A DNA stretch of 64,000 nt from an uncultured Alphaproteobacteria bacterium (GTDB lineage Bacteria > Pseudomonadota > Alphaproteobacteria > GCA-2731375). Position 1 is the first letter of the stretch; each line of letters starts with the position of its first letter. A program made the position numbers and the translations under genes. Positions 5,636-20,829 of this stretch are shown piece by piece. The stretch spans positions 62,001 to 126,000 of the forward strand of contig CATOSZ010000006.1 of NCBI GenBank assembly GCA_951812805.1. The letters run 5' to 3'. Below the pieces are notes generated by a model. That model saw only the letters and a list, made by a program, of their open reading frames with translations. It made no database searches and was not told where the DNA came from.

Positions 5636-5986
5636 ATGAAAAAGCAAACCATAACGAACTTCATTTGGGGCGTCGCCGCGGGAGGCGTCGCCCTGGCCGT
5701 TATTCTGTTCGCTACCGGGTTCGCCGTGACCAGTTCGACGGCGGAACAGCAGGCCCGCTCGACCGCGCAGTCGGCCGTCGCCGAAAGCCTCGCCAAGATC
5801 TGCGTCGCCCAATTCGAGATGGCGCCGGACAAGGCGACGAAGCTCGCGGCCATGAAGGACCTCAGCAGTTGGCAGCGCGGCAACTACGTGCAGGACCAGG
5901 GCTGGGCGACCATGCCTGGGAGCGACAGCAGTGCCGGATCCGTCGCTTCCGAATGCGCCCTGCTGCTGAACGAGATGACGGGCTGA
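5636..5986 (+). CDS. Small single-TM hypothetical protein
   Basis: A 116-residue protein beginning MKKQ with an AGGAAAG ribosome site, preferred over an in-frame ATG 27 bp upstream that lacks one. One TM helix spans about residues 8-30. The rest is a periplasmic or cytoplasmic domain with two Cys, CVAQFEM near 46 and a C-terminal ECALLL. Similar short membrane-anchored orphans occur in Rhizobiales and Rhodospirillales. I do not recognise a function. Confidence 0.65.
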   Translation: MKKQTITNFIWGVAAGGVALAVILFATGFAVTSSTAEQQARSTAQSAVAESLAKICVAQFEMAPDKATKLAAMKDLSSWQRGNYVQDQGWATMPGSDSSAGSVASECALLLNEMTG

Positions 5987-6048
5987 GACGAGCCGATCTC
6001 GAGCCCACCAGACGCCGCTTCGCAGGTAGCACAGGGAAGGGAGGCGCA

Positions 6049-6825
6049 ATGGTCGAAGGTCGCCTGATCATACGTTTGGCGGGTCACGTCGCGCGCCTCC
6101 ATTTTCTAGCCCTGTTTTGCCTTTTCGCCATACCGCAGGCCGGTGCAAACACGGACGTGCCGGCGAATGCACGGGCGACGACGCACGGCGAGGGGTGGGA
6201 ATGCCTCGAGGGCTATCGCCGCAAGGACGATCGCTGCGCCGCCGTCGCCGTGCCGGACAATGCCTATTCGACGGGACGCGGCTATGGCCGGGGGTGGGCG
6301 TGTCGCCGCGGCTACGGCCGCCAGGCGGAGCGTTGCGTGGCGCTTCCGCTACCGGAGAACGCATACTTGAGCGAATCCGGTGATCGCTGGCATTGCAACA
6401 GGGGCTACCGACGGCGCGGTGACGCTTGCAGCGCCGTGGTCGTGCCGCTGCACGGCTATCTCGAAGAGTCGGGTGAGCGCTGGAGCTGCGATCGCGGCTA
6501 CAGGAAGACGGCGGACGCCTGCCTGCAAGTCGAGGTGCCGGAGAACGGGTACCTCGTCGGCTCGTCGCGCAACCCCGACTGGGCCTGCGAGCGCGGCTAT
6601 CGCAAGGCGGAACGGGCCTGCAGGAAGATCGTCATCCCGGAGAATGGCTATCTCGCGCCCTCGGTCTCGGGAACCAGCTGGAAGTGCGAACGCGGCTATC
6701 GCGCGGCGAACGACCGTTGCGCCAAGGTTCCGGTACCGGAGAACGCGCACCTCGACGTCGTGGGCAATGACTGGAACTGCGACAAGCCCTACCGAAAGGC
6801 CACCGACGGCTGCGTATTGCGGTAA
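6049..6825 (+). CDS. Exported protein with seven cysteine-paired repeats
   Basis: 258 residues. The start with an AGGGAGG ribosome site is chosen over in-frame codons further upstream. A signal peptide of about 40 residues ends near IPQAGA. The mature part is almost entirely seven tandem units of about 30 residues with the consensus VPENAYL...gW-C-erGYR...d-x-C. Each unit carries exactly two Cys, about 10-13 residues apart, giving 14 in all. This suggests a string of small disulfide-bonded modules in the periplasm or on the surface. The same repeat occurs in other proteobacterial exported proteins, but I know of no assigned role. It is 62 bp downstream of the small membrane protein. Confidence 0.75.
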   Translation: MVEGRLIIRLAGHVARLHFLALFCLFAIPQAGANTDVPANARATTHGEGWECLEGYRRKDDRCAAVAVPDNAYSTGRGYGRGWACRRGYGRQAERCVALPLPENAYLSESGDRWHCNRGYRRRGDACSAVVVPLHGYLEESGERWSCDRGYRKTADACLQVEVPENGYLVGSSRNPDWACERGYRKAERACRKIVIPENGYLAPSVSGTSWKCERGYRAANDRCAKVPVPENAHLDVVGNDWNCDKPYRKATDGCVLR

Positions 6826-8137: not shown

Positions 8138-8929
8138 ATGGCCTATGCGCCGTTCGACCTGACAGGAAAAGTCGCGCTGATTACCGGCGGCAACAGCGGC
8201 ATCGGCTTGGCCATGGGCGAGGCGGTGGCGGCAGCGGGCGGGGATGTCTGCATCTGGGGGACCAACGCCGAGAAGAACGAGGCGGCCGCCGCGCAACTGA
8301 CCGAACACGGCAGCAAGGTCGCCGCCTTGCAGTGCGACGTCTCGGATGAAGCGGCGGTCGAGGCCTGTTTCGCCGAGACGCTGGCGCGCTTCGGGCGGGT
8401 CGATGGCTGTTTCGCCAATGCGGGCGTCAGCGGGCGGGCTGGCGTGAGCACCGGCCGCGCACCCGCCTTCCACGAGATGCCGACGGATGATTGGCGTCGG
8501 GTGCTGGGTGTCAACCTGGACGGCTCCTTCTTCACCTTCCGGGCGGCGGCGCGCCATATGGTGGAACGCGGCGGCGGCGGCCGGATGGTCGGCACGGCCA
8601 GCCTGGCGGCGATCAGCGGCCAGGCCCGGGGCCAGCACTATGCCGCGACCAAGGGCGCGATGATCGCGATGATGTATGCCCTCTCGGTCGAGTATGGCCG
8701 CCACGGCATCACCGCCAACACGATCCTGCCCGGCTGGATCGAGACCGCGATGACCGAGCGGACCTTCGCCTGGGACAAGTTCTCCGACGCCGTCATGCCC
8801 CGCATTCCGCAACGCCGCTGGGGCCAGGGCGACGACTTCGGCGGTATCGCCGTCTATCTGATGTCGGACGCCAGCGCCTATCACTCGGGCGATACCTTCG
8901 TCATCGACGGGGCCTACTTCCGCTTCTGA
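8138..8929 (+). CDS. SDR family oxidoreductase
   Basis: A 263-residue classical short-chain dehydrogenase/reductase. The nucleotide-binding TGGNSGIG lies at about 13-20, a CDVS segment near 69, the NAG motif near 95 and a catalytic Tyr-Lys in YAATK near 170, with an active-site Ser upstream in the TASLAA strand. A strong ribosome site (GAGGAGA) precedes the ATG. The substrate cannot be deduced. It precedes the nonulosonate operon but is separated from it by a CtrA-like site, so it is probably not part of that pathway. Confidence 0.9.
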   Translation: MAYAPFDLTGKVALITGGNSGIGLAMGEAVAAAGGDVCIWGTNAEKNEAAAAQLTEHGSKVAALQCDVSDEAAVEACFAETLARFGRVDGCFANAGVSGRAGVSTGRAPAFHEMPTDDWRRVLGVNLDGSFFTFRAAARHMVERGGGGRMVGTASLAAISGQARGQHYAATKGAMIAMMYALSVEYGRHGITANTILPGWIETAMTERTFAWDKFSDAVMPRIPQRRWGQGDDFGGIAVYLMSDASAYHSGDTFVIDGAYFRF

Positions 8930-9005: not shown

Positions 9006-10118
9006 ATGATGTCGCTTGAGTCCCTTCTGCTCTCCGACGCGGCGACGATCCGCGAGGCCATCGCCGTGATCGATGCGGGCGAGCGGCGGACGGCGCTCAT
9101 CGTCGATGCCCACTTCAAGCTCATCGGCATCATCCGTGATGCCGACGTGCGCCGCGGCCTGCTGGCCGGCCTGGGGCTGGAGACGCCGGCGGCGCGGGTG
9201 ATGAACACCGAGCCGGTGGTCGGCTATCCCGCGATGAGCCGGCGCAACCTGGTCGACTACATGCGGGCCCGGCGGCGCGACATGCTGCCGATCGTCGACG
9301 CGGCCGGCCGCCTGGTCGGCGTCGAATTCCTGGTCGACACGATCCAGGCCGAGGCGCAGCCGAACGAGGTGGTGGTGATGGCCGGCGGGTTTGGCCGGCG
9401 CCTCGGCGCGCTCACCCGCGACTGCCCCAAGCCGCTGTTGAACGTCGGCTCCCGCCCGATCCTGGAAACCATCATCGAATCCTTCGCCGAGCAGGGTTTC
9501 CGCCGCTTCTGGATCGCCGTGAACTACCTGGCGCCGCGTATCGAGGCGCATTTCGGCGACGGCCGCCATTGGGGCGTCGAGATCGAATATCTGCGCGAGG
9601 AGGCGCCGCTCGGCACCGCCGGCGCGCTTTCGCTGCTGCCACGCCCCCCGACGCACCCCCTGATCGTGATGAACGGCGACATTCTGACCAAGGTGCGCTT
9701 CGACGAGTTGATCGGCTTCCATCGCGAGGCCCGGGCGCGGGCGACCATGTGCATCCGCCGCCATGAGGTCACCATCCCCTACGGCGTGGTCGAGGCGGCG
9801 GACGGCTATTTGTCGGGCATGGTCGAGAAGCCGCGACAAAGCTGCTTCATCAACGCCGGCATCTATGTGCTGGAGCCGGAGCTGATTGCCGCCCTCGCCC
9901 CCGGCCAGCCCCGCGACATGCCCGACATCGTCGAGGCGGCGATGGTGCGGGAACGCGCCGTCGCGCTCTTCCCGATCCGGGAATACTGGATGGACATCGG
10001 CCAGATCGAGGATTTCAAGAAGGCCAACCAGGACATCGCCGAGCTGTTTCCCACGCCCGAGGCCGCCGCCCCGCCGGCGCCGGCACCGCCATGGCCCCGC
10101 GTCGGATTGGCGTCGTAA
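9006..10118 (+). CDS. CBS-domain sugar-1-phosphate nucleotidyltransferase (PtmE-like)
   Basis: 370 residues. Two CBS repeats (about 1-115) are followed by a nucleotidyltransferase domain with the signature MAGGFGRRLGALTRDCPKPLL (split here as MAGGFGRR and CPKPLL, near 128-147), the VMNGDILTK metal-binding Asp and EKPRQ. This two-part architecture is that of PtmE-type enzymes, which make GDP-glucosamine at the head of the legionaminic-acid pathway; that substrate is inferred. The first ATG at 9006 is chosen because 5' extension would run through the CtrA-like site. Its 3' end overlaps the neuC-type gene by 28 bp. Confidence 0.85.
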   Translation: MMSLESLLLSDAATIREAIAVIDAGERRTALIVDAHFKLIGIIRDADVRRGLLAGLGLETPAARVMNTEPVVGYPAMSRRNLVDYMRARRRDMLPIVDAAGRLVGVEFLVDTIQAEAQPNEVVVMAGGFGRRLGALTRDCPKPLLNVGSRPILETIIESFAEQGFRRFWIAVNYLAPRIEAHFGDGRHWGVEIEYLREEAPLGTAGALSLLPRPPTHPLIVMNGDILTKVRFDELIGFHREARARATMCIRRHEVTIPYGVVEAADGYLSGMVEKPRQSCFINAGIYVLEPELIAALAPGQPRDMPDIVEAAMVRERAVALFPIREYWMDIGQIEDFKKANQDIAELFPTPEAAAPPAPAPPWPRVGLAS

Positions 10119-11254
10119 CCGGCGGGCGGGCCGATTGGGGCCTGCTGCTGCCGGTGTTGCGCGCGCTCCGGGCCGCGCCGGACATGGAATTGCGGCTGAT
10201 CGTCAGCGGCGGCCATCTCTCGTCCCGCCATGGCGACACCCGGCGCGAGATCCGGGCCCAGGGCTTCGAGATCGCGGCGGAAGTGCCCTGCCTCGCCGAG
10301 GGCGACGATCCGCTGTCGCTCTGCCGTGCCGTCGGCAGGGGGGTCGAGGGTTTTGCCCAGGCCTACGCGGCGACGGCGCCGGATGTCGTGCTGCTGCTGG
10401 GCGATCGCTACGAGATCCTGGCCGCGGCCGAGGCCGCGATGCTGAGCGGGTTGGTCGTCGCGCACATATGCGGCGGCGACGTCACCGAGGGGGCGTTCGA
10501 CGATTCGATCCGTCATGCCGTCACCAAGATGGCGCATTTGCATTTCGTCTCCAACGAGGGTTCCGCCCGCCGGTTGCGCCAGCTGGGCGAGGATCCGGCC
10601 GCGATCCGGGTGACCGGCAACCCGGGGCTGGATCTGTTGCGCGACATGGCATTTCTCGACCGGGCGGCCTTCGAGGATCGCATCGCCATGACGCTCCGCC
10701 CGCGCAACCTGTTGGTCACCTATCACCCGGAAACCCGTGCGGAGGGTGAGACCGCCGCCGACCTGGACGCCTTGTTGGCGGCCCTCGACGGGCTCGGCGA
10801 GGATGTCGGGCTCATCCTCACGCAACCGAATGCCGATCCCGGGCATGGCGCCTTCCAGCGCCGCCTGGAGGCCTTCGCCGCGCGGCCGAACGCCGTCCTG
10901 CATGCCGCCCTCGGCCAGCAGGGCTATTTCTCCGCCATGCGTCACGTCTCGGCCATGGTCGGCAACTCGTCCTCGGGGCTGATGGAGATGCCGAGCTTCG
11001 GCAAGCCGACGGTGAACGTCGGCGGGCGCCAGGACGGCCGGCCGCGCGCCGCTTCGGTGATCGACGTAGCGCCCCGGGCCGCGGCGATCCGGGGCGCAAT
11101 CGAACGCGCGCTCGCCCTCGACTGCGCCGGCACCGTCAATCCCTATGGCGACGGTCACGCCGCGGCCCGCATTCTCGCCGGCTTGCGTGAGGCCGGCCCG
11201 GCCCGCGCCCTGTTGCGCAAGACATTCCACGATATGGGAGCGCATGCGGCATGA
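10091..11254 (+). CDS. neuC: UDP-N-acetylglucosamine 2-epimerase (hydrolysing), NeuC/LegG type
   Basis: A 387-residue GT-B-fold enzyme of the hydrolysing 2-epimerase family, which releases a 2-epimerised hexosamine (ManNAc or the 2,4-diacetamido sugar in legionaminate pathways) from its nucleotide. Recognised by the N-terminal VVTGGRADWG, LLGDRYE, the hallmark HICGGDVTEGAFDDSIRH (about 122-139), NPGLD and the C-terminal NSSSG loop binding UDP. It lies between the nucleotidyltransferase and NeuB with overlapping ends, so all act in one pathway. Whether the donor is UDP- or GDP-linked cannot be read from sequence. Confidence 0.93.
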   Translation: MAPRRIGVVTGGRADWGLLLPVLRALRAAPDMELRLIVSGGHLSSRHGDTRREIRAQGFEIAAEVPCLAEGDDPLSLCRAVGRGVEGFAQAYAATAPDVVLLLGDRYEILAAAEAAMLSGLVVAHICGGDVTEGAFDDSIRHAVTKMAHLHFVSNEGSARRLRQLGEDPAAIRVTGNPGLDLLRDMAFLDRAAFEDRIAMTLRPRNLLVTYHPETRAEGETAADLDALLAALDGLGEDVGLILTQPNADPGHGAFQRRLEAFAARPNAVLHAALGQQGYFSAMRHVSAMVGNSSSGLMEMPSFGKPTVNVGGRQDGRPRAASVIDVAPRAAAIRGAIERALALDCAGTVNPYGDGHAAARILAGLREAGPARALLRKTFHDMGAHAA

Positions 11255-12342
11255 CAGATCCCGCCATCACCGTCATCGCCGAGGCCGGCGTGAACCACAA
11301 CGGCGACGCCGGGATGGCGCTGGCCCTGGTCGACGCCGCCGCGGCCGCCGGCGCCGATGTGGTCAAGTTCCAAACCTTCAAGGCCGACGCCATGATCGCC
11401 GCCTCGGCGCCGAAGGCGCGTTATCAGCGCGAGACCACGGGCGCGGCGGAAAGCCAGCTCGAGATGGTTCGCCGCCTGGAGTTGTCGCCGACGCTGCATT
11501 CGGAATTGATCGCGCGCTGTGCGGCGCGCGACATCGAGTTCCTCTCGACTCCCTTCGACGCGGAGAGCCTGGCGCTGCTGCAGGATCTCGGCTTGCGCCG
11601 CCTGAAGGTGCCTTCCGGTGAAATCACCAACGGCCCGTTGCTCGTGCGTCTGGCGGCGAGCGGCCTGCCCCTCATCGTGTCGACCGGGATGGCCGACCTG
11701 GCGGAAGTCCGGGCGGCCCTGGATCTCCTGGCCTATGCGATGGTGCACCGTGAGGCGGTGCCCGAAGCCGGACGCCACGCAGGTTTCGCCGGTCGGGCCG
11801 AAGGTCGCGCGGCCTTGGCCCGGCGGGTGACGCTGCTGCATTGCACGACGGAATATCCGGCGCCCATCGCCTCGGTCAACCTGAAGGCGATGGACAGCCT
11901 GGCGGCGGCCTTCGACCTGCCGGTCGGCTATTCCGACCATACCGAGGGGATCACCACGCCGATCGCGGCGGCCGCCCGGGGCGCGGTGGTGATCGAAAAG
12001 CACTTCACCCTCGACAGGGCCCTGCCGGGCCCGGATCATCGCGCGTCCCTGGAGCCGGACGAGCTCGCGGCGATGGTGGCGGGCATCCGCCAGGTCGAAG
12101 CCGCCCTCGGCGACGGGGTCAAGGCGCCACAACCGTGCGAGCTGGGCAATGCCGAGGTTGCCCGCAAGAGCCTGGTCGCCGCCCGCGCCATCCGCCCGGG
12201 CGAGTGTTTCAGCGCCGACAACCTCGCGGCGATGCGACCCGGCACCGGCATCTCACCGATGGCCTTCTGGTCCTATGTCGGCCGGCCCGCCGACCGTGCC
12301 TATGCGGCGGGTGAACTGATCGAGGCCGGGGCCGGCGGATGA
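11251..12342 (+). CDS. neuB: Nonulosonic acid synthase NeuB/LegI type (first copy)
   Basis: A 363-residue PEP-condensing synthase forming a nine-carbon sialic/legionaminic-type acid. The TIM-barrel domain carries EAGVNHNGD, KFQTFKAD, LSTPFD, KVPSGEI, STGMA, HCTTEYPAP, GYSDHTEG and EKHFTLD in the family order. A C-terminal SAF (antifreeze-like) domain starts near RKSLVAARAI (about 305). ATGA overlaps join it to neuC upstream and to the formyltransferase downstream. It is clearly distinct from the second synthase at 16743-17732, so two nonulosonates or two steps are implied. Confidence 0.95.
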   Translation: MTDPAITVIAEAGVNHNGDAGMALALVDAAAAAGADVVKFQTFKADAMIAASAPKARYQRETTGAAESQLEMVRRLELSPTLHSELIARCAARDIEFLSTPFDAESLALLQDLGLRRLKVPSGEITNGPLLVRLAASGLPLIVSTGMADLAEVRAALDLLAYAMVHREAVPEAGRHAGFAGRAEGRAALARRVTLLHCTTEYPAPIASVNLKAMDSLAAAFDLPVGYSDHTEGITTPIAAAARGAVVIEKHFTLDRALPGPDHRASLEPDELAAMVAGIRQVEAALGDGVKAPQPCELGNAEVARKSLVAARAIRPGECFSADNLAAMRPGTGISPMAFWSYVGRPADRAYAAGELIEAGAGG

Positions 12343-13010
12343 GCGTCCTCCTCTTCACCAAGTCCGATTGCTGGTCACGCCGCGCCCAGGCGGCGGCCCG
12401 GGAGGCTTTCGGTGCCAGGCTCACGGTTCTCGAGGGCAACCGCGGCGATGGCTTTCCGCAATTGCCGACGGTGGATGCGGGCACCGTCCTGCTTTCCTTC
12501 CTCTCGCCCTGGATCTTGCCGGCGGAACTGCTGGTGGCGGCGGGTCCGGCGCTCAACTTTCATCCGGGCAGCGCAAACTATCCCGGTATCGGCTGTTACA
12601 ACTTCGCACTCTATGAGGGCGCGCGGGACTTCGGCGCCGTCTGTCATCACATGGCGGCCCGGGTCGATTCCGGTGACATCGTCGCCGAGCGGACCTTCGA
12701 GATCGCGCCGGACGAGCGGGTCGAGACCTTGAAGCTGCGCACCATGGAAGTGATGGCGGCGATGTTCGAGGAGATCGTCGCCGAACTCGCCCGCGGCCGG
12801 GTCCCGGCGGCGGCGGGTATCGCGTGGACGCGGCGTCCCTTCACCCGGCGTGAGTTGGAAGAGCTCTGCCGCCTGGTACCGACGATGGACGAGGCGGAGA
12901 TGCGCCGGCGAATCCACGCGACGGCCTATCCTGGCTTTCCCGGCGCGCGGATCGAGATCGCCGGAACCGTGTTCCGGGCAGAGGTTCCCGCCGGCCCGGC
13001 ACTCGCCTGA
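12339..13010 (+). CDS. Formyltransferase-fold sugar-modifying enzyme (first copy)
   Basis: 223 residues with the folate-dependent formyltransferase core: the catalytic Asn-x-His in LNFHPGSANYPG (about 66-77) and the catalytic Asp in DSGDIV (about 109). The domain is minimal and lacks the tRNA-binding C domain of methionyl-tRNA formyltransferase, as in sugar N-formyltransferases. Being last in the overlapping nucleotidyltransferase-neuC-neuB operon, it most likely N-formylates an amino sugar intermediate or product. The exact position is unknown. Confidence 0.8.
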   Translation: MSVLLFTKSDCWSRRAQAAAREAFGARLTVLEGNRGDGFPQLPTVDAGTVLLSFLSPWILPAELLVAAGPALNFHPGSANYPGIGCYNFALYEGARDFGAVCHHMAARVDSGDIVAERTFEIAPDERVETLKLRTMEVMAAMFEEIVAELARGRVPAAAGIAWTRRPFTRRELEELCRLVPTMDEAEMRRRIHATAYPGFPGARIEIAGTVFRAEVPAGPALA

Positions 13011-13019
13011 ACGGCAGCG

Positions 13020-13034
13020 TTAATTCGATCTTAA
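13020..13034 (+). promoter_or_regulatory. Perfect CtrA box upstream of the radical SAM gene
   Basis: TTAA-TTCGATC-TTAA matches the full CtrA consensus (TTAA-N7-TTAA) and is followed by G. It sits 55 bp before the start at 13090, in the 79-bp gap after the first formyltransferase gene. A second box at 14991 shares not only the TTAA halves but the flanking CAG and the inner CGATC, giving 18 identical positions over 21. Confidence 0.65.
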
Positions 13035-13089
13035 GTCCGCGCGCAGATGCTGGACGGCAATTCCGCCCTGCCCGGCGAAGGAGCCTGTC

Positions 13090-14157
13090 ATGAACGTCAT
13101 CCGCCAAGATCTCGTCGTCCGCAGCGCCCCGGTCTGGCGACCGAGCGCGGAGTCCCCCTGGCAGTTCGACGCCAATGCCACCTTCAACGAAAAAGTCTTC
13201 AGCGAGGACTGGAAGGCGCATCGCGGCGAGGACTATCAGCAGTACCGGCACGACTGGCACCAGGTGCCGGCGACGAAGACGGAGCTCGACTTCCCGCTGC
13301 ATCTCGACATCGAGACCACGACGCGCTGCAACCTGCTGTGCCCCATGTGTCCGAGGACGTTGCTGGTGGAGAAGGGGACCTTCAACGACTTCGGCTTCAT
13401 GACCCGGGCGGAATACGCCTCGATCATCGACCAGGGCGCGGCGTATGGCTTGCGTTCGATCAAGCTCAACTATCTGGGGGAGCCGCTGCTGCACAAGGAC
13501 GTTCCCTGGCAGGTCGCCTATGCCAAGGAAAAGGGCGTCGTCGACGTGCTGATGAACTCGAACGGCACCGCGCTCACCAAAAAACTCGGACGCCGCCTGC
13601 TGGAAGCCGGCGTGGACGGCCTCTTCGTGTCCTTCGATGCGGCCAATCCGGCCGACTATGCCCGCCAGCGTGTCGGCGCCACGCTCGGCCGGGTGATCGA
13701 CAACCTCTATTCCTTCGTCCGCCTGCGCGACGAGATCCGCCCCGGCTGCCAGATCCGCGTTTCCATGGTGATGTACGACGAGCCGAAATGGCGCGACCAG
13801 TTCGCCGCCCTGCAGGTGATGTGGCGCGACCTGGTCGATGCGGTCGGCTACAGCTACTACGTCGAGCGTGACGACGACGCCCATGGGGAATACGACCCCG
13901 TGCCCGGCTTCCACTGCGCCCAGCCCTTCCACCGGATGTTCCTGAAGAACAACGGCAACGTCACGATCTGCTGCTTCGACGACAAGGACGAGATCATCCT
14001 CGGCAACTGGCGCGAGGAAAAGCTGCACGCGATCTGGAACTCGGAGGCCTACCGTGAGATCCGCCGGCTGCACGCCGAGGGCCGCTATCACGAAATGGAT
14101 CTCTGCCGGAAATGCTACTTCCCGGTTTCCCAGAAGCAGGCCGACGTCGCGAGCTAG
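13090..14157 (+). CDS. Radical SAM/SPASM protein
   Basis: A 355-residue radical SAM enzyme. The cluster-binding CNLLCPMC (CxxxCxxC, about 79-86) opens a TIM-barrel domain with the NYLGEPLLHKD (GGE-like) motif. A C-terminal SPASM-type region has ICCFDDKD and CRKCYFP for an auxiliary Fe-S cluster. Family members modify peptides or sugars or perform epimerisation and dehydrogenation; the substrate here is unknown. It lies in the nonulosonate locus with its own CtrA box and a GAAGGAG ribosome site. It converges on the next gene, both stop codons using one CTAG. Confidence 0.88.
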   Translation: MNVIRQDLVVRSAPVWRPSAESPWQFDANATFNEKVFSEDWKAHRGEDYQQYRHDWHQVPATKTELDFPLHLDIETTTRCNLLCPMCPRTLLVEKGTFNDFGFMTRAEYASIIDQGAAYGLRSIKLNYLGEPLLHKDVPWQVAYAKEKGVVDVLMNSNGTALTKKLGRRLLEAGVDGLFVSFDAANPADYARQRVGATLGRVIDNLYSFVRLRDEIRPGCQIRVSMVMYDEPKWRDQFAALQVMWRDLVDAVGYSYYVERDDDAHGEYDPVPGFHCAQPFHRMFLKNNGNVTICCFDDKDEIILGNWREEKLHAIWNSEAYREIRRLHAEGRYHEMDLCRKCYFPVSQKQADVAS

Positions 14158-14948
14158 ATCACGACCGCCCGCTCGCCGAAGCTGGCCGGCCGCGCGGCGG
14201 TGGAGCGGGCAATTGCCGCCGGGGTGGGCAGGTGATCGAGGTAATCGCCGGCAACCGCATCGGTGAAATCGGCGTTGCGGCTATAGCGGATCTGCAGGTC
14301 ACGATCCTGCGTGGCCGGCGCGCCGGCGAAGAGGTCGCCGCCGGCGATGCGGGCGATGAGGCCGTGCTGCGCGGCGCGGACCGCCGCCATGCCGAGGTCG
14401 AAGGGATCATGCGGACCGGGGGCGGGGAAGGCATGGAAGAGGATGTCGCCGCTGTCGAGGCCTTCGGAAAGCAGATGGACCGTTGCCCCCACCAGGTCGG
14501 CCCGCCCGTCGGCGAGCGCCCAGAAGTTGCAGGACGAACCGCGATAATAGGGTGAGACGCCCATGTGGATATTCGCCGCCCGGCCGGCGATCAACCGCTC
14601 GCAGAGCGCGCCCTTGATCCAGCTGGCGCCAAAGACGACGAAATAGTCGGCGTCCAGCAGCGGCGCCAGGTCCCCCGGCGACAGGTCGGAGAGATCGCCC
14701 ATTTTGACGACCAGCGCGCGTACGTTGGCGGGCAGCGGACGGGGTCGGCCGAACAGGCGCGCCTCGGCCCGCATGACCTCGGCGAAATAGCGCTGCATGA
14801 TCGCGCTTCGGGCGAAGAAGTCGGCTCGTGCGCCGGGAAAGATGGTGGTGCATTCGACGACGGCGGCGACCTCGTCGGCGACGTCGGCCAGCGCTTCCAG
14901 CAGCGCCAGGTGACGCGGCTGGTTCGAGGTGAAGACGCTGATTTTCAT
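14154..14948 (-). CDS. Formyltransferase-fold sugar-modifying enzyme (second copy)
   Basis: 264 residues. The start MKISVF is preferred over a longer reading because GAGGTCC precedes it. Catalytic residues of the folate-type formyltransferase fold are present: NIHMGVSPYYRG (about 134-145, Asn-x-His) and Asp in DSGDIL (about 171). The C-terminal tail is short, without an anticodon-recognition domain. It is unlike the first copy outside the core, so this is not a recent duplication. Probable N-formylation of a surface sugar, inferred from the neighbouring nonulosonate genes. Confidence 0.78.
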   Translation of the reverse strand: MKISVFTSNQPRHLALLEALADVADEVAAVVECTTIFPGARADFFARSAIMQRYFAEVMRAEARLFGRPRPLPANVRALVVKMGDLSDLSPGDLAPLLDADYFVVFGASWIKGALCERLIAGRAANIHMGVSPYYRGSSCNFWALADGRADLVGATVHLLSEGLDSGDILFHAFPAPGPHDPFDLGMAAVRAAQHGLIARIAGGDLFAGAPATQDRDLQIRYSRNADFTDAVAGDYLDHLPTPAAIARSTAARPASFGERAVVI

Positions 14949-14990
14949 TGGACCTCGCGCTTCCGTTCGGACCACTTTCGGGCAACAGGG

Positions 14991-15005
14991 TTAAGGCGAT
15001 CTTAA
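14991..15005. promoter_or_regulatory. Perfect CtrA box between divergent formyltransferase and deacetylase genes
   Basis: TTAA-GGCGATC-TTAA, 44 bp before the deacetylase start (15049) and 43 bp behind the divergent formyltransferase start (14948), so it could serve either gene. It is nearly the same 21-bp element as at 13015-13035. Confidence 0.65.
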
Positions 15006-15048
15006 GCTGGCGCCGCCAAGCTTGGCGGCGAGAAGGGAGACGCCGCCC

Positions 15049-15984
15049 ATGCCCGCACCGCCGCACGGTCTGATGTTTCACCACTTCCACGACGCGGTCC
15101 ATCCGCCGATCCAAGGTTCGATCTCGGCCGAGGGGTTCTGTGAACTGCTGGACTTCGTCGGCCGTTCCCGCATCCTGCCGGCCGAGGATTGGCGCTGCCG
15201 CGCCGAGAGCGGCCGTTTGCGCGACGGCGAGCTGTGCCTCACCTTCGACGACAACCTGCGTTGCCAGTACGACATCGCCCTGCCGGTGCTCGAAGCGTAT
15301 GGCCTCACCGCCTTCTGGTTCGTTTACACCTCGCCCCTCGAAGGCGTCGCTGAAACACTGGAAGTCCATCGCCACTACCGCAATACGGCGTTCGCGGACG
15401 TCGATGAATTTTACGCGGCCTTTTTCGCCGCCCTGGCGACCTCCCCCTGGGGAGCCGAGGCGGAGGCGGCGCTGGCCGGCTTCGATCCTGCCGGCTATCT
15501 AGCGGAGCTTGCCTTCTACAGCGACGCGGACCGGCGCTTCCGCTTTGCCCGCGACCGCATTCTCGGGCCGGAACGCTATGACGAGACCATGGTGGTGATG
15601 ATGCGCCGCTCGGGCTACGACGTTGCCGACGCGGCGACGCGGCTGTGGATGGGGGCGGGGGACTTGCGCCGGCTCGCCAGCGGCGGCCATGTCATCGGCC
15701 TGCACTCGCACAGCCACCCGACCGACCTGAAAGCGCTGCCCGCCGATGCGCAGGCCCGCGAATACGCCCGCAATGCCGAAGTCCTCCGCGCCGAGGTGGG
15801 TGTTGCGGCCGACAGCATGGCGCACCCGACCAATTCCTACGGGCCCGAGACGCTGGCCTTGTTGCACCGCCAGGGCGTGCGCCTCGGCTTCCGCGCGAAC
15901 CTGGCGTTGGCTGAGTACGGGCCGTTGGAGCACCCGCGCCGTGATCACGCCGAGGTCATGGCGGCGATGCACCTGGCCGCCTGA
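15049..15984 (+). CDS. Polysaccharide deacetylase (NodB-type)
   Basis: A 311-residue protein with the carbohydrate esterase 4 signature LTFDDN (about 63-68) and a downstream metal-binding HSHSHPT (about 220-226). The start with AGAAGGGAGA is preferred over an in-frame TTG upstream. No signal peptide is seen, so it may act on a cytoplasmic or lipid-linked sugar, removing N-acetyl groups. A deacetylase next to two formyltransferases fits replacement of acetyl by formyl, but this is inference. Confidence 0.82.
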   Translation: MPAPPHGLMFHHFHDAVHPPIQGSISAEGFCELLDFVGRSRILPAEDWRCRAESGRLRDGELCLTFDDNLRCQYDIALPVLEAYGLTAFWFVYTSPLEGVAETLEVHRHYRNTAFADVDEFYAAFFAALATSPWGAEAEAALAGFDPAGYLAELAFYSDADRRFRFARDRILGPERYDETMVVMMRRSGYDVADAATRLWMGAGDLRRLASGGHVIGLHSHSHPTDLKALPADAQAREYARNAEVLRAEVGVAADSMAHPTNSYGPETLALLHRQGVRLGFRANLALAEYGPLEHPRRDHAEVMAAMHLAA

Positions 15985-15993
15985 CGCCCCGGT

Positions 15994-16746
15994 TTACTGC
16001 GCGGCGACGGCCCGCAGGCGGATCGGTGGTGCCGGTTTCTGTTGCACGGCGGCGTTGAGCGCGGCGACCTCCGGATGGGCGTCGAGCCAGGCGACGATCT
16101 CGTCGAGCCCGAAAACCCGGCCGGGGCGATGCAGCGCCTCGATCACCCGCCGCACCACCTCGAAGTCCGGCGCCTCGTCCACGGTCAGCCGCAATTCGGG
16201 CCGGCGAAGACGGGCCTCCGCGACCGCGAGCGTTTCGCAGCGAAAGCGCTCCGTCTCGGTGAAATAGCCGCCCCAGACCTCGGTCTCCCGCGTCGCCTTG
16301 AGGGCGCAAGCCTCGGCCAGCGCCGTGCGCCGCAAGCCGTAGCAGAAGGTGCCGAAGGGCAGGCCGTCGATCTTCACATAGTCGGCCCGGCGCTCCGCCA
16401 TGAGATCGATCAGGCGGTCGAGATGGGGCGGGTCGACGAAGGGGCAGTCTGCGGTGCAACTGGCGACGAGATCGACGTCGAAGGCCTCGGCCGCGGCCAG
16501 CAGGCGGGCCAGCACGTCGTCCGGATCGCCGCGAAAGACCTCGATCCCCTCCTCCCGGGCGACGGCTTCGAGGGGATCGTCCTCAGCTATCGTCGAGGTG
16601 CACAGCACGATCCGTTCCGGCCGCTTTGCCAGGCGCAGCCGGCGGATCATGTGAACCAGCATCGGCTCGCCCAGGATCGGCTTGAGGACCTTGCGCGGCA
16701 GGCGGGTCGACTTCAGGCGGGCGGTGATGAAGGTCGCGACCCTCAC
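15994..16746 (-). CDS. Cytidylyltransferase, SpsF/NeuA-like
   Basis: A 250-residue GT-A nucleotidyltransferase that probably activates a nonulosonate with CMP. The N-terminal FITARLKSTRLPRKVL (about 6-21) matches the SpsF-type CMP-sugar synthetases, and SCTADCPFVDP (about 95-105) supplies the metal-binding Asp. Its start overlaps the end of the NeuB/SpsE-type gene by 4 bp (ATGA), so the two form a leftward operon and probably act in sequence. Confidence 0.85.
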   Translation of the reverse strand: MRVATFITARLKSTRLPRKVLKPILGEPMLVHMIRRLRLAKRPERIVLCTSTIAEDDPLEAVAREEGIEVFRGDPDDVLARLLAAAEAFDVDLVASCTADCPFVDPPHLDRLIDLMAERRADYVKIDGLPFGTFCYGLRRTALAEACALKATRETEVWGGYFTETERFRCETLAVAEARLRRPELRLTVDEAPDFEVVRRVIEALHRPGRVFGLDEIVAWLDAHPEVAALNAAVQQKPAPPIRLRAVAAQ

Positions 16747-17732
16747 GCCACGTCCTCCCAGCGCACCAGTTCCTGCGAGGCGAGGTCGCGGCGCAGGCGG
16801 CGGCCGATCAGCTCCGGCGTCCGGTCGGGCGGCAGGCCCAGGGCGTCCGAGCGGAGGTAGACGAGATCCGCCGCGTCCAACGCGTGGCCGGCGGGGAGGG
16901 CCTGGGCGACGACGACGCTCTTCTTGGAATAGACGCGATAACGCTCCTCGTCCTCCGAGAAGGGTCGGGGCACGCCGCTGCCCCGCGCCACGTCGATCTC
17001 GCGGACCATGGCGGTGAAGCGCGCGAACTCGTCCGGGTTCAACGCCGCTTCGTGGTCGGCGCCCTTGGCGGCGCGGTCGTGGGTGATGTGTTTCTCCAGG
17101 ATCTGCACGCCCATGCCCTGGGCGGCGGCGGGCAGGGTATAGGCGCCCGGGAGATCGGCGTCGGTATGATCCTGATAGCCGACGGGCAGCTCGAACAGCT
17201 GGGCCAGCTTCATCATGTAGGCGAGGTGCACGTCCTCTACCCGGGTGGGGAAATTCTGGTAGCCGTACATCAGCCAGATATCGTTGCCGGCAATGTGCGC
17301 GATGGCGTCCTGGATTTCACCGATCGTCGAGCCGCCGACGGAGAGATCGATACGTTTGCCGGTCCCCGCCATATGGCGCAGCAGATAGGGATTGGAAAGA
17401 TCGGCGCTGTGCAGCTTGTAGGCGTCGACGCCCAGCGTCTCGGCGAAATCGACGCTTGCGGGATCGTAGACACAGGCGATGATCGCCAGGCCGGGCCAGC
17501 GTTCACGCACATGCGACGTGAGAGCCTGCCAGTGCGGGCGCGAAAGCTCCAGCCGTTTGACGGCATCGAAGGCCGGGTGGGCGCGGACCATCATGTCTTC
17601 CAGGCGCCAGATCTGGAACTGGATGCTGTCGGCTCCGGCGGCGCCGGCGCCGTCGATGATCCGCCGGGCGAGTTGCGGATTGCCGTCGTGAGAGCAGGCC
17701 ATTTCCGCGATGATATGAACTGATGTCGACAT
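16743..17732 (-). CDS. NeuB/SpsE-type nonulosonic acid synthase (second copy)
   Basis: A 329-residue PEP-condensing synthase of the SpsE-like branch. It has EMACSHDGN, IQFQIW, KLHSADLSN, LSVGGST, LMYGYQNFPT in place of the LLHCTxxYP of the first copy, GYQDHTDAD and LEKHITHD. A C-terminal SAF domain starts near YSKKSVVVAQ (about 272). The altered active-site strand points to a different sugar substrate from the NeuB at 11251. Upstream is a GTTAACC half-site (17758-17764) but no full CtrA box. Confidence 0.9.
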   Translation of the reverse strand: MSTSVHIIAEMACSHDGNPQLARRIIDGAGAAGADSIQFQIWRLEDMMVRAHPAFDAVKRLELSRPHWQALTSHVRERWPGLAIIACVYDPASVDFAETLGVDAYKLHSADLSNPYLLRHMAGTGKRIDLSVGGSTIGEIQDAIAHIAGNDIWLMYGYQNFPTRVEDVHLAYMMKLAQLFELPVGYQDHTDADLPGAYTLPAAAQGMGVQILEKHITHDRAAKGADHEAALNPDEFARFTAMVREIDVARGSGVPRPFSEDEERYRVYSKKSVVVAQALPAGHALDAADLVYLRSDALGLPPDRTPELIGRRLRRDLASQELVRWEDVA

Positions 17733-17950: not shown

Positions 17951-18477
17951 TTGATCGAAATGACTGACGATACGGCGCTGTCGAAGGTCATTCTCGATTC
18001 CGTCATCGACGCGGTGATAACGATCGATCATTCGGGGATCATTCGCGACGCCAATCGTGCCACCATCACACAGTTCGGCTATGCCCTGGATGAATTGATC
18101 GGCAGCGATGTCACGATGCTGATGCCGGAAAAATACGTTTCGGCCCATACGGAGGCGTTGCGGCGCTACCGGGAGAGTGGCGAGGGGCGGATCTTCGGCA
18201 AGGCCGTGGAACTCGAGGCGCGCCATCGCGACGGCCGGGTGTTTCCCATCGAACTCACGCTCGGGCGGTTTCGCGAGGACGGCGTCGAATTGCTGACCGG
18301 GGTCCTGCGCGACATTTCCGAACGCAAGTCGGCCGAACGGGAGCTCGCCCGTCAGGCCCGTGAGCTGGCCCGCTCGAACGAAGATCTCAACCAGTTCGCC
18401 TATGTCGTCAGTCACGATCTCAAGGCGCCGTTGCGGGCGATTTCAAACTACGCCAGTTTCCTGCACGAGGATCTGGC

Positions 18478-20248
18478 GTAACAGGGGCAAAACCCCGGGC
18501 GGTCAAGCCATTTCGATGCAGCGTTGTCTGACGAGGATCGGCAGTGGGGGCACGGGTGGGGCGCCGGGGACCTTGAGGCGGTCGCCGAGATAATCCCAGA
18601 AGGAGAGGCCAAGTTTCTGGCAGGTCTTGTAGAGGCCGAGGAATGTGTCTCGGGCCTGCTTGCCGTCCTCGGAGCGTGTGCCGCCGGAGAATTTTCGCCT
18701 TGTGACCATGGCGCGGATGTCGCGTTCCGCGCCGTTGGTGTTGAGCGGGACCTCCGGGCGGTCGAGGACGACGAGCAGTTCGTCGCGGTTGGCATGCAGG
18801 CGAGCCAGGAGCCGGTCGAGGCGGAGGAATCCGGTCTTGGTCGCGAAGAGCGCATCGAAGCGGCATGCCAGGTGGGCCCGCCGTCCTGGCGCCGGCCTTT
18901 CGCGATAGGCTTTGAGATCGGCGTAGAGTTGCCAGAGCCGTGCCTGGATGTGTTCCTTCTCGCGCCGCTGGCTCCGGGAGAAGGTCATCAGCTTGTGGAT
19001 CAAGCGCTCCGCATGGACCCAGCAGAGCGCGTGGCGGCCGACGTTGAACTGGCCAGCATCGTCACTCAGGACGACGCAGGCGCCCGCGGCCGTGCCCCTG
19101 AGCAGGCCGTGCGCGGCGATGGCGCCCCACAGCGCCCCCTCGGTGGCGGTCCGCGCGGCCCCGCGCCCGTCCCCGTGCCCGGTGATGGCGAGCCGCCCCA
19201 GGTGGGCCAGCCAGGCATCTTCGTTGGTGAAGCGCCGCGGGCAGCCCTCGGCCAGACGGGCGATCACCGATGCGGCCAGGTCGCGCTCGGCCATGTAGGC
19301 GAAGGCGGCGGCATTGAGCACATAGTCCGCGTGGCCGGCCCGCAGCCGTTCCAGGAAGTTCAAGCGGCTCTTGGAAAACGTCGTGGCGAACCAAGCGAAG
19401 GCGTCGTTGCCGATCCCGCTCGTCACCCCGTTGCGGTTGGCGTGGCGGGCGCCGGTATCGTCGACGCTGATCCAGGGCGCCGTCTCCAGGCCGGCGCGCA
19501 GCACCGCCTCGCCCTCGGCGACGAAGCCGTCATGGCCCTCGTTCAACAACCGCACCACCTGGCGCTTGGAGATCTTGATGCCGAGGTCGTCCAAGAGCCG
19601 CGCCAAGCGCTCCGCGCTGGTCTGGCCGCCATGATAGAGCGCCAGCACGAAACGCCTGAGCGCCGGGCCGAAGTGGCCGCGCGTCCCCGCCGGCAGCGGC
19701 GCCACGATCGTGGCCCCCTCGGGCGTCAGCCAGCGCTCGCGGCGTAACAGGACAGTGTTCGGCCGGCAGAGCAGGTCCTGAACCAGATAGTCTTCATAGC
19801 CCTTGAAGCGCGAGCCCGCCGGCACGGCGGCCCGGACGATCCGCCTCTCGTCGATGGGAACCCGGCCCTTCTTGGCCCGCCGTCCCGCCTTCCGCCCCGT
19901 CCGGCCCCGGGATACGGCCTGCTTGTCCATGCCGCTCGGCTTGATATCCGGTGGCCCGGAAAGGCCTTTGAGACGGCGGATCTCTTCGCGCAATGTCGCG
20001 TTCTCGGCACGCAGGGCCGCCTGCTCCTCAAGCAGCGTCAGAACCAGCGCCTTCAGGGCGGCGACATCAAGATCGTCGAGATCCGGAAGCGATTCGGCCA
20101 TGACGGGATCGAATCACAGACCTCCCGCCGCGAACATCGATATCTGGTCACTTGACGCGGAAGCCTCACAAGATGTGGCCGTTGAGACTCACCCCTATAC
20201 CCAGGCCAGATCCCCCCGTCCCCAGGCCCGGCCTTTTGCCCCGGTTAC
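18478..20248 (-). mobile_element. IS66-family insertion sequence (single-ORF type), 1771 bp
   Basis: Termini are imperfect inverted repeats beginning GTAACAGGGGCAAAA on the left and, read inward, GTAACCGGGGCAAAA on the right; GTAA ends are typical of IS66. The element is flanked by a perfect 8-bp target duplication GATCTGGC (18470-18477 and 20249-20256), also the IS66 length. It encodes only the TnpC-type transposase, with no tnpA/tnpB accessory genes, as in the ISBst12-like subgroup. The intact target repeat and open transposase frame indicate a fairly recent insertion. Confidence 0.96.
18503..20101 (-). CDS. IS66-family transposase (TnpC)
   Basis: A 532-residue DDE transposase. An N-terminal leucine-rich coiled coil (about 15-48) leads into a basic zinc-finger-like region and the catalytic core with ISVDDTGARH (first Asp), VLSDDAGQFN with ALCWVHAER (second Asp region), and the terminal NGAERDIRAM carrying the catalytic Glu. 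The length is usual for IS66 TnpC. It is read against the interrupted kinase gene. Confidence 0.95.
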   Translation of the reverse strand: MAESLPDLDDLDVAALKALVLTLLEEQAALRAENATLREEIRRLKGLSGPPDIKPSGMDKQAVSRGRTGRKAGRRAKKGRVPIDERRIVRAAVPAGSRFKGYEDYLVQDLLCRPNTVLLRRERWLTPEGATIVAPLPAGTRGHFGPALRRFVLALYHGGQTSAERLARLLDDLGIKISKRQVVRLLNEGHDGFVAEGEAVLRAGLETAPWISVDDTGARHANRNGVTSGIGNDAFAWFATTFSKSRLNFLERLRAGHADYVLNAAAFAYMAERDLAASVIARLAEGCPRRFTNEDAWLAHLGRLAITGHGDGRGAARTATEGALWGAIAAHGLLRGTAAGACVVLSDDAGQFNVGRHALCWVHAERLIHKLMTFSRSQRREKEHIQARLWQLYADLKAYRERPAPGRRAHLACRFDALFATKTGFLRLDRLLARLHANRDELLVVLDRPEVPLNTNGAERDIRAMVTRRKFSGGTRSEDGKQARDTFLGLYKTCQKLGLSFWDYLGDRLKVPGAPPVPPLPILVRQRCIEMA

Positions 20249-20829
20249 GATCTGGCCGACTCCCTGGATGGCGATCAACGGCTCTACATCGACAATCTGA
20301 TGAACGCCACCGGCGAGTGCGAGGCCTTGATCGAGGCGGTGCTGGCGCTCTCCCGCGTCGGGCGCCGCGATATCGAGAACGAGGTCTTCGATCCCCGAGA
20401 ACTGCTGGAGAACCTGTCGCGTTCACTTGCGCTCGAGGGCGAGGTTCGCTTCGTCGGTGAGGGTTGGACCGATTTCGACATGCCGACGTCCGCATTTCGC
20501 CAAGCGTTTCAAAACCTGATCACCAACGGTTTCAAGTTCAATGATTTGCCGGAGAAGATCGTGACGGTCGAGTGTCGGCGTCGCGATGAAACGCATGTCG
20601 AGATGTCGGTGACGGACGAGGGCATCGGCATCGAACCCGCCTATCACGGCAAGATCTTCGAGGTCTTTCAAAGATTGAATCCGCGGGAAAATTACGAGGG
20701 TACGGGGATCGGTCTGGCGATCGTAAAGAAGGCCGTCGATTTCCTGAATGGTGAGCTCACTCTCGAATCGGAACTGGGGAAGGGAAGCCGGTTTATCGTT
20801 GTTCTGCCCATCGAGAGGACGAGCTAGCC

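Follow-up and report, generated by a model that had tools for sequence, protein, structure and literature searches.

Among the closest described relatives of the locus analysed here is the CMP-legionaminic acid pathway, known as the GDP route of Campylobacter with PtmE and from the sps genes of Bacillus. Our locus shares with it the order of CBS-domain nucleotidyltransferase (NTase), NeuC and NeuB and the position of the synthase in trees, and LegB and LegC are found in the operons of relatives. In contrast to that pathway, it has a formyltransferase in the acetyltransferase slot, a deacetylase/formyltransferase pair, a second synthase, a radical SAM enzyme and a broken LegB. ArnA (a formyltransferase) and ArnD (a NodB-family deformylase) form the classical pair of a formyltransferase with a CE4 enzyme. 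PseJ, a sugar N-formyltransferase (PDB 6ci2/6ci4), is linked to nonulosonate synthesis like the second formyltransferase described below (FT2), and is among the best solved-structure matches of FT2 (E=1.2e-5), but the similarity is only ~28 bits and FT2 is longer and paired with a NodB-type gene. Halorubrum sp. PV6 contains 5-N-formyl-legionaminic acid, a known formylated product, and has a predicted formyltransferase gene inside its Leg locus, as does our locus (PMC6137143). The two systems differ in that PV6 is archaeal and that one formyltransferase, NeuD and LegH are named for it, with no deacetylase mentioned (PMC6137143).

The window, that is, the whole 64,000-nucleotide stretch analysed, is G000:C6:62001-126000 of the source genome (G000; 7.4 Mb in 19 contigs), which its named relatives assign to Alphaproteobacteria. 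We compared it with 384 other sampled genomes (G-numbers) and with individual contigs or loci (L-numbers). Ten genes make up the region of interest:

8138..8929, plus strand: short-chain dehydrogenase (PF13561/PF00106; below every NCBIfam equivalog cut-off)
9006..10118, plus strand: CBS-domain nucleotidyltransferase, PtmE-like (PF00483 132 bits, PF00571)
10091..11254, plus strand: NeuC/LegG-type hydrolysing 2-epimerase (TIGR03568 396 bits, cut-off 236)
11251..12342, plus strand: NeuB/LegI-type synthase (TIGR03569 473 bits, cut-off 400)
12339..13010, plus strand: putative N-formyltransferase FT1, in the NeuD/LegH slot (PF00551)
13090..14157, plus strand: Twitch-type radical SAM enzyme (PF04055 and PF13186)
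14154..14948, minus strand: putative N-formyltransferase FT2 (PF00551; ATG start at 14948, reading frame open to a GTG at 14975)
15049..15984, plus strand: NodB/CE4-type deacetylase (PF01522 53 bits)
15994..16746, minus strand: SpsF/KdsB-like cytidylyltransferase (PF02348 75 bits)
16743..17732, minus strand: second NeuB-fold synthase, "SpsE" (PF03102 159 bits; below the NeuB and PseI equivalog cut-offs)

All ten genes are open and keep their catalytic motifs, and open frames and family assignments bear out the sequence-only reading in placing every gene that it named, intact, where it put them. The overlapping run that it described, from the NTase through NeuC and NeuB to FT1, is confirmed by the coordinates (28, 4 and 4 nt), and SpsE and SpsF overlap by 4 nt on the minus strand. 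The radical SAM gene starts 79 nt past FT1 on the same strand, FT2 is convergent with it, and NodB is divergent from FT2. The short-chain dehydrogenase gene, which ends 76 nt before the NTase start, is a possible first gene of the operon; short-chain dehydrogenases are also present within the Leg operon of Rhizobium WL3. Elsewhere in the window, a frame at 5665-6825 carries about seven repeated YRK/Cys-containing units (CxxGYRxxxDxC).

A tree that included solved-structure synthases, built on PDB fragments and not on whole chains, places the window NeuB with its counterparts from Rhizobium sp. WL3, G347, L035 and L036 (support 96/95, then 98/96) and apart from NmNeuB, CjPseI and Bacillus SpsE. 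The Rhizobium sp. WL3 neuB lies in an annotated LegB-LegC-NeuC-NeuB-acetyltransferase-NTase run, and L035-L037 hold in one run NeuC, SpsE, SpsF, LegB, NTase, NeuB, radical SAM, a cytidylyltransferase, LegC and NeuD (the L037 contig starts inside this run). As its place in the tree is among synthases of legionaminic-acid operons and not among sialic or pseudaminic ones, we read the window NeuB as LegI-type. Profiles and tree together thus place LegI- and LegG-type enzymes of legionaminic acid biosynthesis in the window, a class assignment that comes from the operons of sister sequences, as TIGR03568/03569 do not separate Leg from Neu. The NTase, which would make NDP-GlcN/GlcNAc, is 46% identical to that of the Rhizobium WL3 Leg operon and 41% identical to that of G015.

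The sequence-only reading had suggested a formylated derivative, and homology, the gene order of relatives and the formyltransferase tree support probable N-formylation. FT1 and FT2 both keep the Asn-His-Asp catalytic residues. It had also held that a grouping with purine or tRNA enzymes would speak against its proposal; instead, FT1 and FT2 form two clades (100/100 each in the close sets) apart from the genome's own PurN and Fmt, in a tree whose deep branching is not resolved. Both are accordingly classed as predicted sugar N-formyltransferases and not as housekeeping enzymes. FT1 is 54% identical to the gene directly after neuB in Azospirillum lipoferum 4B, and this slot is held by the acetyltransferase NeuD in Rhizobium sp. 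WL3. An FT1 homologue is found near NeuB-rSAM-LegC in G347, and a match in G312, though located in a flagellin/NeuB region, is weak (34%). We set aside the FT1-like matches in G290, G329, G005 and G090, which fall outside nonulosonate loci.

FT2 has matches in 5 of the 384 other sampled genomes, and in four of the five (G384, G347, G108 and G058, but not G174) the homologue adjoins a NodB-type (PF01522) gene, with an overlap of exactly 4 nt in three of the pairs. As matches occur in so few genomes, we judge informally that these four cases carry weight. In G058 the pair is followed by neuB; in G384 it lies outside a nonulosonate locus, which counts against a nonulosonate role. NodB adjoins a different formyltransferase in G029 and lies within a nonulosonate locus in G015. 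The TFDD and HSxxH (HSHSH) motifs of the window NodB supply the catalytic Asp and the HxxxH metal motif of CE4/NodB deacetylases. A different type of pair joins an Fmt-like member of the formyltransferase family to a PIG-L protein. It comes after NeuC, with 4-nt overlaps, in G388, G202 and G373, which we count as two cases because G202 and G373 are close kin. These partners of PIG-L have Gly in place of the catalytic Asn and so may not formylate; their operons keep NeuD.

From these data we infer that N-formyl takes the place of N-acetyl, partly by deacetylation followed by formylation. This acyl exchange is a reasoned proposal with an ArnA/ArnD-like rival, in which formylation is transient: FT2 would add a protecting or handling formyl that the NodB-type protein removes to give a free amine. 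The FT2-NodB coupling fits that scheme equally well, and the ArnA/ArnD precedent is joined by the presence of ArnA among the structure matches of FT1. However, no ArnD model is found among the NCBIfam matches of NodB (the best is HfsH, 22.5 bits), the recurrent pairing of formyltransferase-family and PIG-L proteins suggests deacetylation, known PIG-L members being de-N-acetylases, and an end product that retains the formyl group, 5-N-formyl-legionaminic acid, is known (PMC6137143). We consider transient formylation unlikely and favor acyl exchange.

Further evidence bears on whether the pathway is complete. The dehydratase and aminotransferase steps had been expected to lie elsewhere in the genome, and a search for LegB and LegC homologues upheld this for the aminotransferase only. 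An intact, stand-alone gene for a probable LegC-type aminotransferase is found at G000:C3:559482 (356 bits, under the cut-off of 420 but level with the 361 bits of LegC in the L036 operon), but LegB is present only as positions 2-198 of 297 of TIGR04180, cut by a mobile element. Both copies of LegB are truncated and join a transposase gene at exactly the same point. The C-terminal half was not found in the stretches searched or by a genome-wide family search, and no intact LegB dehydratase for legionaminic acid biosynthesis was found. L027 (G000 C2) and L028 (G000 C3) share 9.8 kb at 100% identity, cut LegB included, and differ by an 8.2-kb phage-tail-like insert in C2, a sign either of redundancy in the assembly or of a differing prophage. 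The TPR protein beside LegB was considered as an MptE/Maf glycosyltransferase and dropped, as Pfam and NCBIfam show only TPR repeats. For LegH/NeuD, where the search covered the NeuD type, the best match in the genome reaches 47 bits against a cut-off of 161, and no LegF-like CMP-sugar synthetase was found in the genome. Bacillus SpsF is predicted to serve as a LegF-type CMP-sugar synthetase (PMC7439481); here, either SpsF could serve both branches or the pathway could have decayed. The pathway in this assembly is probably interrupted at LegB, and with the only LegB found being cut and no LegF or NeuD found, the sugar may not be made in the strain, our chief ground for caution over its product.

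Decay would mean that insertion elements cut LegB and removed LegF and NeuD, and that the window genes are remnants making nothing. The two truncated LegB copies and the failure to find LegF or NeuD agree with this, as does an insertion element (18503-20101) adjoining the island. Against decay, the ten window genes are open with their catalytic motifs and the LegC-type aminotransferase is intact, SpsF could activate both products, and an intact copy may be missed in a 19-contig assembly with mobile elements at junctions. We consider decay of the pathway unlikely. The transposase at 18503-20101 (minus strand) is IS66-like by its sequence and apparently splits a PAS/histidine-kinase gene, which has its start at 17951 and seems to resume after ~20220 (window 17951-20300).

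The two synthases differ at the active-site strand, HCTTEYP in NeuB and MYGYQNFP in the second synthase, just as had been read. A structure model of the second synthase (pLDDT 74, best match 1vli) has the NeuB fold, and it shares with NmNeuB, Bacillus SpsE and CjPseI the SAF domain, the metal His pair, Glu and Asp. In NmNeuB numbering, it keeps E25, Q55, K129, H215, E234, H236 and D247, and differs from these enzymes at positions 53, 110, 184, 186 and 213, canonically K, T/S, variable, Y and S, which are Q, C, Q, F and Q in the window, L035, L036 and G015 (K53Q, T110C, N184Q, Y186F and S213Q). The changes vary within the clade, as G388 and G218 differ further. K53, T110, N184, Y186 and S213 have a role in PEP or sugar binding. 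The protein is thus NeuB-family by fold and by metal and acid residues, without these canonical five. Phylogeny, while placing NeuB with Leg-operon synthases, puts it in a separate clade (100/100) with SpsE of L035, L036, G015, G388 and G218. The earlier label "SpsE-type" is misleading, since Bacillus SpsE (1vli) has the canonical residue at almost every position compared and the window protein groups elsewhere.

SpsF adjoins SpsE in L035, L036, G015 and G388, and the two are fused in G218 as one 594-residue frame (L096 9410-11194), suggesting that they act in turn. Apart from SpsF, no convincing CTP_transf_3 protein turned up in the genome. The two parallel synthase/cytidylyltransferase sets of the relatives L035-L037 lend support to the earlier suggestion of two nonulosonates. 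Production of one nonulosonate only, with the divergent synthase a paralogue that takes the same intermediate, or a later one, as its substrate, would suit the single cytidylyltransferase that remains in the genome, but it is improbable given that L035 and L036 keep both synthases with two cytidylyltransferases, that SpsE and SpsF are fused in G218, and that the neuB regions of A. lipoferum 4B and WL3 are without a second synthase/cytidylyltransferase pair. We tentatively favor a second ulosonate branch. The SpsE/SpsF/NodB locus of G015 (L095 5294-8911) also holds GAPDH-like, HpcH/HpaI-like aldolase and 2-hydroxyacid dehydrogenase-like proteins (named by eye), which may hint at what the second synthase acts on. 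In G388 (L048 811-6432), SpsE-SpsF is followed by Gfo/Idh-like oxidoreductase, class-III-like aminotransferase, HisH/HisF-like and amidotransferase-like proteins (also named by eye). NeuB-family synthases in L097 (9163-11460) and L101 (8959-11208) occupy frames of ~750 residues, twice the usual length, which suggests domain fusion.

The radical SAM enzyme had been named a SPASM protein, which proved wrong. SPASM is defined by a seven-cysteine CX9-15GX4C-CX2CX5CX3C-C motif (PMC6231123), and after CX2C the window enzyme has no further cysteines of it. Its four auxiliary cysteines (C-x17-C ... C-x2-C), enough for one cluster, have the Twitch spacing and are shared with BtrN, the nearest solved structure (E=2e-13); these and the CxxxCxxC (CNxxCPMC-type) motif are invariant in seven homologues. 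BtrN is a Twitch enzyme that carries out the two-electron oxidation of an aminocyclitol (PMC9012708), but the window enzyme is ~100 residues longer and has another substrate context, and its structure model (mean pLDDT 49) is too poor to use. Homologues are found in 4 of the 384 other sampled genomes and on four named contigs, two of which belong to genomes already in the sample. The gene has NeuB as its neighbour in L035, L036, L037 and G347, and SpsE-SpsF in G388 (L034 is too short a contig to show the neighbourhood). In L035-L037 it stands between NeuB and a cytidylyltransferase gene, with a 4-nt overlap into the latter, a hint that the enzyme acts around the free ulosonate stage. A paper on this enzyme group cautions that sequence similarity does not reveal function (PMC6231123), so any reaction assigned here is a guess. 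Plasmid searches with FT2 and with the radical SAM enzyme as queries gave no match, and literature searches of incomplete coverage returned no paper joining formyltransferase, deacetylase and nonulosonic acids, or treating radical SAM with nonulosonic acid.

Overall, there is good support, at the level of the gene set, for a nonulosonate island of the legionaminic type with probable N-formylation. That the island serves N-formylated legionaminic-type nonulosonic acids together with a second ulosonate branch is, from the sequences compared, about an even call. The NTase, NeuC and NeuB would perform the PtmE, LegG and LegI steps, and FT1 would formylate the 4-amino group that becomes N7, replacing the acetyltransferase NeuD/LegH. 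NodB may strip the GlcNAc-derived N-acetyl, leaving an amine (N5) for FT2 to formylate. The second synthase and SpsF would form and CMP-activate another ulosonate, and the radical SAM enzyme may oxidise or epimerise a carbinol carbon of one of these sugars in the manner of BtrN. The genes, their families and catalytic motifs, and the conservation of gene pairs and neighbourhoods are observed; we infer all substrates, the N7/N5 assignment, the radical reaction and where the sugars are used (perhaps on flagellin or in a capsule). More tentatively, the second synthase and cytidylyltransferase may constitute an undescribed bacterial ulosonate branch in which the PEP/sugar pocket is altered, and a nonulosonate may undergo radical oxidation or epimerisation by the Twitch enzyme, alongside a deacetylase/formyltransferase acyl-exchange module.

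N-formyl nonulosonates are already known, and the papers searched describe no route for formyl to N5, which starts as the N-acetyl of GlcNAc. The deacetylase/formyltransferase gene pairs, involving two unrelated deacetylase families, offer a testable route. Surface sugars still to be isolated would be the implication of a synthase clade with a changed active site and of a radical SAM enzyme associated with operons for nonulosonates.
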